Origin: Deltaproteobacteria bacterium
GTDB lineage: Bacteria > Desulfobacterota > Desulfobacteria > Desulfobacterales > SpSt-501
Length of the DNA: 52,664 bases
Direction of reading: 5' to 3'
NCBI GenBank assembly: GCA_016219005.1
Contig: JACRCN010000053.1
Location: 1-52,664, forward strand
Shown here piece by piece: positions 36,995 through 39,616 of this stretch. The translations under genes were made by a program, and so were the position numbers. How positions within the stretch are numbered: the stretch's first letter is position 1; the number at the start of each line of letters is the position of its first letter. A model generated the notes under the pieces. That model was given only the letters and a program-made list of their open reading frames with translations. It was not told the origin of the DNA and searched no databases.

Positions 36995-39469
36995 CTACTG
37001 CCGACCAGGATCCGTCTTTTCGGGTAAAACATAATGCGTGGCCGGGCCGCGTCCGGTCTTTTTCAGAATCCCCCGGGTCACCAGGTTCTGCAGGTCGTAG
37101 ATGGCGGTGCGGGCGGGCAGGTTGCCGCCGATCAGTGCCTGGTATTGACCGCGCGTTACCTGCCCCTGCGCGGTGATGGCCGAAAACGCTTTGCGTTGCC
37201 GGGCATTGAGGTCCGGCGGCGCGTCGGCCGGCGGGCCCGCCGCAGCTTCCAGAAAAGCCTCCGCGCGGTCCCCGTCTGCGTCTTCCGCATCCAGATGGAT
37301 GTCGTCGGCCTGAATCAATTGCCCTTCCGCCATCACCACGGCCCGGGTGATGCAGTTCTGCAGCTCGCGCACGTTGCCGGGCCAGTCGTAGCGCATCAGC
37401 ATGGACAAAGCCCCCTTGCTGACGCCCTTGGCAGTCCGGCCGGTGAGTCTTTCCTGCAGGCCGAGAAAGTGCCGCGACAGCACGGGGATGTTTTCCTTCT
37501 GTTCGCGCAGCGGCGGGGTGTTAACCGTGATCACCTTGAGGCGGAAATACAGGTCCTCGCGAAACAGCCCCTTGTCGATGAGCCCCTTGAGATCGACATT
37601 GGTAGCCACGATCAATCGCACGTCCACATCCATTTCGCGGTCACTGCCCAGGGGTTTGACCTTGCGCATGGCGGTGGCCCGGAGCATGGCCTGCTGCACC
37701 CGCGGCGAGGCCGCCTGGATTTCATCGAGAAAAAGAGTGCCCCGGTCGGCCTCCAGGAAGGCGCCCTTGCGGTCGGTCTTGGCCTCGGTGAACGCGCCTT
37801 TCACATGGCCGAAGAGAGTGTCCAGCAGCAGGTTTTCGTCCAGGGCGCCGCAGTTGATCGAAATGAAGGCCTTGCCCCGGCGGGCGCTCAGGTTATGGAT
37901 GGCCTCGGCCGCCAGCTGCTTGCCGGTGCCGGTCTCGCCGATGATCAACACATCCGCTTCGGCCTGGGCGGCCTTGAGGATCTCGGATTTGAGCCTCTCG
38001 ATCCGGGCACCGTACCCGACGATGGACGGGACTCGGTCGCGGCCCTCATCGGGCTCAGGCCCTGCTATCGCACGGTCCAGCGGCGCCTGCTCCTTGAGGA
38101 TGGCGCTGCGAATCTTTCGGTCTTTCTGCCGGATTTCCTCCAGCTGACGATTCAATGTCGCGATCATGGTGTTGATCGCCTGCTGCAGTCCTTTGATTTC
38201 TTTGCCGAAGTGGGAAATATGGATGGCTTCCAGTTCGGGCTTCTGAGACAGATCTTTTACCGCCTGAGCCAGTTTCACGATGGGCCGGGTGATGATTCCT
38301 CCCAGCAGGTAGATCAGGCCGGCCACCACCAGGGCGGCGGCGACGGTCACCAGGAACATGGTGTCCATGTGTTTAAGGCCGGCCGCCATGGTCAGGCGGC
38401 TGATGTCCATATAGGCCACTCCCGCCACGACCTGGGGCCTGGCCGTGTCCGAGGATTTGAAACGCACGGGCGCATAGGCCAGGAAATAGTCCCGGTCATA
38501 ATAATTCGGTTTGTTGGTGGTCAGCATCAGGGCGGAGTTGCGACCCTCGCGCACGTCCTCGACCATTTTCCAGTAGTTCCCGAAAATGGAGTCCGGCAGG
38601 AAGGCGCTTTCCTGCCCCTGACGGCCCAGAATCCCGGTGAAGCCGGTGCGCGCCAGGTGCGAGGACAGGTCGGCATGCGGTTTCTCGACGGATTCGGATT
38701 GAAACAGGATCCACCCGTCGAGGTCGAAAAGATAAAAATAGCGCTCTTCAGCCGTGCGCTCAAATGCCCATATCGGAGACTGGCTGGAGTTGTAGAGTGA
38801 AAGAATATTTCGCAGGTTGAGGACGTCCACCATAACGATCAGATAACCTGTCGCACCGCCGGACTTGCAACAGGGGGTGGCCATGTTGATGACCTTGCGG
38901 ATCAATTTCTGATTGGGATTATCCGGTTCAGGGAATGGAAACTCCAGTTCGGTGATCGGCGACAGCCAGACCTGGTCAGGGGTCAGTTGCTTGACCTTTT
39001 CATAATAAATCAGGGGAATGGGTTTGATCTCAGAGATCATTGCGGAAGGTATTTGCGCGATGTACCCTTCTTTTGCCATATAGATCAGGTGGTCGGCAGT
39101 TTTTTGCGAAATAAAGGCAATACCAAGATAATCCACGCCGCCATTTAGCTTGCTCTGAGATAGAAATCGGCGCAATGCGTCTTCGTTAACGTTTTCTTTT
39201 GCCAGATTGGACAGGTCCTGGCGGCAATTATCCAGAAAGTATTCTATCTCATGTTTAAGCGCCATGACCTGCAGTTGACTGGAACGCTCGATGGCGCTGC
39301 TGATGAACTTGTTCGAAATAAAATAGGTGAGATAACCGGTAACGATAAGGATTATAAGGACAGGTGGAATCAGGCCGATCATCAGGCGGGTTTTGATGCT
39401 GCTGTTCAGAATTGCTGCGCGCAAGCGCTCAAAGCTCGAATCAGGCAATTCACCCTTGAACCAACGCAT
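36995..39469 (-). CDS. Membrane-bound sigma-54 activator-like protein: Cache sensor, HAMP, AAA+ and winged helix
   Basis: 824 residues. TM1 at about 31-50, a roughly 310-residue periplasmic double-Cache-like sensor, TM2 at about 371-391, and a HAMP segment (RPIVKLAQAVKDLSQ) are followed by a AAA+ domain (about 485-720). Walker A is GETGTGKQ (511-518), Walker B GTLFLDEIQ, and the R-finger region FRLKVITVNTPPLREQ. The sigma-54 contact motif reads GAFTEA (558-563) instead of GAFTGA. The C-terminus (751-815) is not a Fis helix but a winged helix (LNARQRKAFSAITAQGQVTR, then LVTRGILKKTG). The start at 39469 has AGGTG upstream. It is divergent from a -24/-12 promoter at 39601 and probably regulates that operon in response to a periplasmic signal. 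Whether it truly works with sigma-54 is uncertain. Confidence 0.9.
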   Translation of the reverse strand: MRWFKGELPDSSFERLRAAILNSSIKTRLMIGLIPPVLIILIVTGYLTYFISNKFISSAIERSSQLQVMALKHEIEYFLDNCRQDLSNLAKENVNEDALRRFLSQSKLNGGVDYLGIAFISQKTADHLIYMAKEGYIAQIPSAMISEIKPIPLIYYEKVKQLTPDQVWLSPITELEFPFPEPDNPNQKLIRKVINMATPCCKSGGATGYLIVMVDVLNLRNILSLYNSSQSPIWAFERTAEERYFYLFDLDGWILFQSESVEKPHADLSSHLARTGFTGILGRQGQESAFLPDSIFGNYWKMVEDVREGRNSALMLTTNKPNYYDRDYFLAYAPVRFKSSDTARPQVVAGVAYMDISRLTMAAGLKHMDTMFLVTVAAALVVAGLIYLLGGIITRPIVKLAQAVKDLSQKPELEAIHISHFGKEIKGLQQAINTMIATLNRQLEEIRQKDRKIRSAILKEQAPLDRAIAGPEPDEGRDRVPSIVGYGARIERLKSEILKAAQAEADVLIIGETGTGKQLAAEAIHNLSARRGKAFISINCGALDENLLLDTLFGHVKGAFTEAKTDRKGAFLEADRGTLFLDEIQAASPRVQQAMLRATAMRKVKPLGSDREMDVDVRLIVATNVDLKGLIDKGLFREDLYFRLKVITVNTPPLREQKENIPVLSRHFLGLQERLTGRTAKGVSKGALSMLMRYDWPGNVRELQNCITRAVVMAEGQLIQADDIHLDAEDADGDRAEAFLEAAAGPPADAPPDLNARQRKAFSAITAQGQVTRGQYQALIGGNLPARTAIYDLQNLVTRGILKKTGRGPATHYVLPEKTDPGRQ

Positions 39470-39600
39470 GGCATTACACCTCATTTCGCGCAAGATTCAG
39501 ATTCAGCCTTTTCGGCAAGACCCGGTTTTTACACATTCTTATCCCGGAATCAACTAAAATCAATAAGAAAAATAATCGGTATGCATTTTGCGAGACCTGA

Positions 39601-39616
39601 TGGCACAGCCCTTGCT
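39601..39616 (+). promoter_or_regulatory. Sigma-54 (-24/-12) promoter of the TauE/SafE operon
   Basis: TGGCACAGCCCTTGCT is an essentially perfect -24/-12 promoter (TGGCAC-N5-TTGCT), 104 bases before the start codon at 39720. Confidence 0.8.

Follow-up and report, generated by a model that had tools for sequence, protein, structure and literature searches.

The closest described system is DVU0151 of D. vulgaris, a single-component regulator with a GAFSEA motif and the target operon DVU0150-DVU0146 (Kazakov et al. 2015, PMC4641369). In the accessible part of that paper, DVU0151 is the only one of 37 EBPs without an annotated Fis HTH, and the winged-helix model SSF46785 is matched in some of its orthologues. 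The same part lists 12 of the 37 D. vulgaris EBPs as deviating from GAFTGA and counts GAFSEA among the variants expected to keep activity. For NorR, the accessible sections report that most substitutions of the second Gly of this loop are non-functional, that G266D and G266N are constitutive and that the Glu variant is non-functional (PMC2941729). In PspF, R131 is the proposed pivot between E81 and E97, and the R131A mutant was almost devoid of ATPase activity and significantly reduced in transcription activity, as given in the accessible text (PMC2745333).

Here we describe a GAFTEA regulator encoded in a 52,664-nucleotide stretch of a Deltaproteobacteria bacterium contig (JACRCN010000053.1), referred to below as the window. 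The protein most likely is a member of the DVU0151 group and a working one-component inner-membrane sigma-54 activator of the neighbouring operon, to which we give a probability of about 0.83 on the grounds of its architecture, motif conservation, ATPase residues, promoter, divergent synteny and the presence of a sigma-54 gene. The original prediction had taken this architecture to be unusual and isolated, of which the isolation is not supported, as the same architecture and motif class are published for DVU0151 in the accessible part of PMC4641369. Since the system is already in print there, the find mainly extends the DVU0151 type beyond the species studied. What is added to the accessible content of that paper is an acidic loop residue fixed in 47 of 47 proteins, coupling residues missing in all 47 and a candidate operator, WTCGYGCAA.

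Gene start and domain architecture

The minus-strand ORF at 36995-39493 is intact and gives 832 aa if read from TTG (ORF list). The ATG at 39469 appears to be the better start because 7 nt separate it from an upstream Shine-Dalgarno-type GAGGTG (39477-39482, minus strand) and Met was found at this column in 18 of 19 aligned rows, at which the window row itself had been entered from that Met. The span initially assigned to the regulator, 36995-39616, does hold the gene; its upper end includes the promoter, and the gene ends at 39469 or 39493.

Table 1. Features of the regulator gene and the divergent operon (window positions)
Feature	Position	Strand	Remarks
DVU0151-type bEBP gene	36995..39469, stop codon included	-	824 aa from ATG; TTG-started ORF reaches 39493
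C-terminal region with putative winged helix replacing Fis HTH	36998..37264	-	Basis: family profiles
GAFTEA codons, residues 558-563 of 824	37781..37798	-	L1 loop replacing GAFTGA
HAMP domain, residues 389-440	38150..38305	-	Below Pfam cut-off for window protein
Periplasmic dCache-like sensor, residues 58-337	38459..39298	-	Weak match, below Pfam cut-off for window protein
Candidate operator TTTCGCGCAAG	39484..39494	+	Starts 117 bp upstream of -24 box; putative
Sigma-54 -24/-12 promoter TGGCACAGCCCTTGCT	39601..39616	+	Sole perfect match in window
DVU0150-family small protein, first gene of operon	39720..40016	+	NF040783 (DVU0150_fam), E=2.8e-40
TauE/SafE (TSUP) permease	40075..41130	+	PF01925, E=1e-40
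DUF4881 protein, putative lipoprotein	41169..41762	+	PF16222, E=2.1e-78

Pfam matched the AAA+ core of the window protein with PF00158 (Sigma54_activat, 4.5e-57) and with AAA_lid_14 (5.2e-23), and two hydrophobic segments were found at about residues 24-56 and 367-399; the predicted one-component transmembrane bEBP is supported. HAMP (7.6e-4) and dCache_1 (0.0025) were both under the Pfam cut-offs. At E<=0.01, dCache_1 matched 10 and HAMP 8 of the 17 family rows, the window included, with best values of 5.8e-8 and 4.4e-9, respectively. The Cache-like sensor and HAMP first proposed are weak, below cut-off, in the window protein and clearer in some relatives.

No Fis model matched the C-terminus of the regulator, either in the window protein or in its relatives, and in the window protein the last 99 aa matched no Pfam family at E<=0.1. 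Among 44 family C-termini, we detected DIP2311-like_C in 20 (best 4.7e-4), TrmB in 7 (best 3.3e-5) and HTH_DeoR in 6 (best 5.9e-4); the unrelated SHOCT also matched 5 of the 44 (best 6.2e-5). The top match of the C-terminal profile in the PDB, a weak one, was to residues 296-367 of the Fic protein 8cil_A (E=0.011). Single-sequence models were too low in pLDDT for use, both that of the C-terminal region (56.1, with the order H-H-H-E-E) and that of the full protein (34.6). With no Fis match and with winged-helix models matching the C-termini of relatives, the non-Fis winged helix of the original prediction stands, and in the window protein a winged helix would replace Fis as assigned via the aligned relatives.

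The GAFTEA loop and the coupling residues

As predicted, Glu replaces the second Gly of GAFTGA (Table 1). The family set comprises 47 proteins, the window included, and all of them are acidic at this position, 45 with Glu and 2 with Asp. This set was found by the sensor half and not by the loop motif; a 48th row is a fragment (L162). In 112 other bEBPs, the same position is occupied by 91 Gly, 13 Asp (including one from the misaligned row L016), 7 Ser and 1 His, and Glu was found in none of these 112. The comparison set has 113 rows, 112 of them with a residue at this position; 31 are from 30 loci of the same genome (among 50 PF00158 places) and 82 from 80 contig-scan loci, the latter being the best 80 generic bEBPs of more; it is not a random sample, because it was picked by similarity. 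The family specificity of Glu is relative to the 112 other bEBPs compared.

The acidic L2 residue (DEIG-E/D), found in 94 of the 112 other bEBPs, is present in none of the 47 family proteins (Fisher p=9e-26, a value that overstates the independent evidence because the family is one clade). By offset, the equivalents of PspF E81, E97 and R131 in the window protein are V556, L572 and P606, and none of the three coupling residues (scored as E/D, E/D/Q and R/K) was found in any of the 47. Such a loss alone is not unique, since all three are also missing in 17 of the 113 other bEBPs and Pro at the R131 position, which 45 of 47 family proteins have, occurs in 35 of the 113. At the alignment positions which we take to be Walker A, Walker B, the arginine fingers and sensor II, the Lys, the DE pair, the two Arg and the Arg, respectively, are kept in 47 of 47, and the Asn of the glutamate switch is conserved in 43 of 47.

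The loop-1 Glu is the normal state of this family and probably compensated elsewhere in the AAA+ domain. The doubt first raised, that the loop change points to lost sigma-54 activation, has some ground in NorR, which a Glu here rendered non-functional (PMC2941729, accessible sections). Against it are the acidic residue in all 47 proteins, the kept ATPase residues, the -24/-12 sites retained in relatives (next section) and the counting of GAFSEA as activity-keeping in the accessible part of PMC4641369. Our literature search returned no paper with both GAFTGA and GAFTEA; among three papers returned for these motifs, GAFSEA was found only in PMC4641369, and the sole match to GAFTEA was an unrelated eHealth paper.

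Promoter, candidate operator and synteny of the divergent operon

In the whole window, only TGGCACAGCCCTTGCT matches the -24/-12 pattern perfectly, where 0.06 such sites are expected, and the genome has a sigma-54 gene with one Sigma54_DBD match. Across 44 family intergenic stretches, a site of at least 10/11 was detected in 27 versus 1.1% of shuffled stretches (at most 3 of 44 over 100 rounds), and one of at least 9/11 in 34 versus 6.3%; the remaining 10 score below 9/11. These stretches ended at 330 bp, and the sites of L039, L140 and L141 lie at or beyond about 320 bp. The divergent sigma-54 promoter originally predicted was thus recovered as a perfect site that is also kept in the intergenic stretches of relatives. 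By eye, we also observed a perfect inverted repeat, TTGCGAC-N5-GTCGCAA (39641-39659), between the promoter and the DVU0150-like gene. In L140 and L141, the promoter is flanked by an inverted repeat, with ATCTCGCCAG upstream and CTGGCGAGAT downstream, a pair that would fit promoter-flanking operators in this clade.

The word WTCGYGCAA was picked by eye from the first 19 loci, where 12 loci hold 16 sites (0.4 on average and at most 3 in shuffles), and then tested on a second set of 26 further loci, many of them related and so not independent, with 14 sites in 13 loci (mean 0.6, maximum 4 in 200 shuffles). In k-mer discovery with 30 shuffles, 7- and 8-mers were not above the shuffles and 9-mers merely tied the shuffle maximum. 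A matrix scan covering 200 bases on the upstream and 64 on the downstream side of the promoter gave 64 sites in the 18 training loci versus 15 expected by shuffling (maximum 30) and 52 in 19 test loci versus 16 (maximum 31), with a site often counted on both strands because the word is near-palindromic. Of the 116 matrix matches, 88 have their start between 41 and 180 bp upstream of the -24 box, and GCAA directly adjoins this box in 11 of 37 aligned promoters. In the window, TTTCGCGCAAG is placed between the regulator ATG and the promoter; the 9-mer was found 3 times versus 3 expected, which is not significant alone. We consider WTCGYGCAA a candidate operator and do not claim it as new; binding motifs were reconstructed for many EBPs, according to the accessible part of PMC4641369.

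Perhaps the regulator binds the divergent region as a repressor or modulator and another bEBP of the genome, which has 50 PF00158 matches (four with marginal E-values), drives the 39601 promoter. A protein bound at the GCAA that abuts the -24 box in those 11 promoters could block the polymerase, the loop-coupling residues are missing, and the Glu of GAFTEA is dead in NorR (PMC2941729, accessible sections). Nevertheless, we find this improbable, as a repressor would have no need of the ATPase residues kept in all 47 proteins and, in most of the family loci examined, the regulator remains divergent from a sigma-54 promoter.

The sensor half, used as a query, matched 20 of 146 related genomes, and a profile search matched 34 of 395 genomes sampled from the phylum, the own genome included in both; the profile search gave 35 matches, at which 5 yielded no locus and were left out of the locus set. 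Given these counts, the system is recurrent, yet absent at the search sensitivity from most genomes sampled. The DVU0150-like and TauE genes are divergent from the regulator in 40 of the 48 family loci, a set that includes the own locus and counts one gene twice, as L046 and L052 overlap. In L046, L050, L052, L150 and L153 a contig end lies close upstream of the regulator. The NF040783 match of the window is the only one in the genome, and a DUF4881 gene comes after TauE in L169 and L170 too.

Three regulators face other genes first: that of L045 a Na+-transporting decarboxylase (OAD) beta subunit gene, that of L047 DUF4881 directly, and that of L051 a CBS protein together with a sequence weakly matching a fragment of a Na+/sulfate symporter. 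It could be argued from them that the regulator has a different or wider target set, in which the neighbouring operon is one target among others. This is hardly likely, since the DVU0150-like/TauE pair is what the regulator faces in 40 of 48 loci, and in the L045 genome this pair is found further on, after the decarboxylase gene (L168). Even more remote is the reading of GAFTEA as local degeneration in a gene becoming a pseudogene: although most second-Gly substitutions are non-functional in NorR (PMC2941729, accessible sections), the ORF is intact and the residue is acidic in 47 of 47 proteins, including some whose identity to the window protein is as low as 33-37% over the best aligned piece, and this conservation already largely refutes it. 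A degenerate or unique protein was likewise ruled out by family-wide conservation.

Other genes were observed around these loci. L051 is a second family copy in its genome (G001), with the motif GAFTDS. A PEP-synthase-like protein of 942 aa (42622-45450, minus strand), matching NF005057 at 2.1e-100 over residues 188-636, below the model cut-off, recurs near the regulator in relatives, and in L169 its gene is directly downstream of the regulator. Downstream of the regulator in the window (33039-36368, minus strand), ORFs resemble two ABC-transporter permeases and a solute-binding protein. The window also has a second bEBP AAA+ domain at 13929-14420 (minus strand, E=3.5e-66).

Proposed mechanism and relation to known activators

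As a sigma-54 activator of the neighbouring operon, the regulator would sense a small ligand with its periplasmic dCache-like domain, and the signal would run through TM2 and HAMP into the AAA+ domain. The winged helix may hold the protein at sites resembling TTTYGCGCAA that lie upstream of the promoter, at which the AAA+ domains would form an ATPase ring. Its GAFTEA loop, with the Glu presumably compensated, could then remodel the sigma-54 RNA polymerase at 39601-39616 and thereby switch on the DVU0150-like/TauE/DUF4881 operon. Counting against the activator are the NorR Glu variant, PspF R131A, the 10 of 44 low promoter scores and the non-significant operator of the window, and also the winged helix having no Pfam match in the window protein itself.

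A more speculative idea, which we hold as tentative and rather doubtful, is that the family forms a mechanistic class of its own among sigma-54 activators, membrane-tethered, anchored by a winged helix and rewired in loop coupling, in which the fixed loop-1 Glu and a non-acidic L2 replace the PspF E81/E97-R131 switch. If this is true, the family background would tolerate or even require the Glu that is lethal to NorR function, and exchanging the coupled residues would carry the Glu tolerance over. The family is a natural experiment, being a clade with the loop residue that inactivates NorR and with no PspF loop switch, and it offers a concrete test of the coupling between ATP hydrolysis and sigma-54 remodelling, made practical by the candidate operator and the conserved transporter target.

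Compared with the known bEBPs NorR, NtrC and PspF, the window protein has the same AAA+ core, Walker motifs, arginine fingers and sigma-54 loop; it differs by Glu at the second Gly, absence of the acidic L2 residue, V/L/P at E81/E97/R131 and no Fis HTH. PF00158 with the ATPase residues, a GAF[T/S]xA loop with Thr/Ser, a promoter and a sigma-54 gene were all found, as expected of a sigma-54 bEBP; GAFTEA fits GAF[T/S]xA and not the exact GAFTGA, and the C-terminal Fis HTH of a typical bEBP of that type was not found. As in NorR G266D and G266N, an acidic or polar residue at this loop position would still allow sigma-54 activation; those are laboratory mutants that escape regulation, according to the accessible sections of PMC2941729, and Glu, dead in NorR, is natural here.

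The nearest likeness is to DVU0151 and its Desulfovibrionales orthologues, as described in the accessible part of PMC4641369. The differences are GAFTEA here and GAFSEA there, and an N-terminal region regarded there as a possible unknown sensing domain and here as dCache-like plus HAMP. Both are one-component bEBPs with a long conserved N-terminal region, an acidic residue at the second Gly and a winged helix, not Fis, and both are divergent from a sigma-54 operon of the DVU0150 type. These shared features of architecture and neighbourhood, matched through the published description and the DVU0150_fam model, place the window protein in the DVU0151 group.
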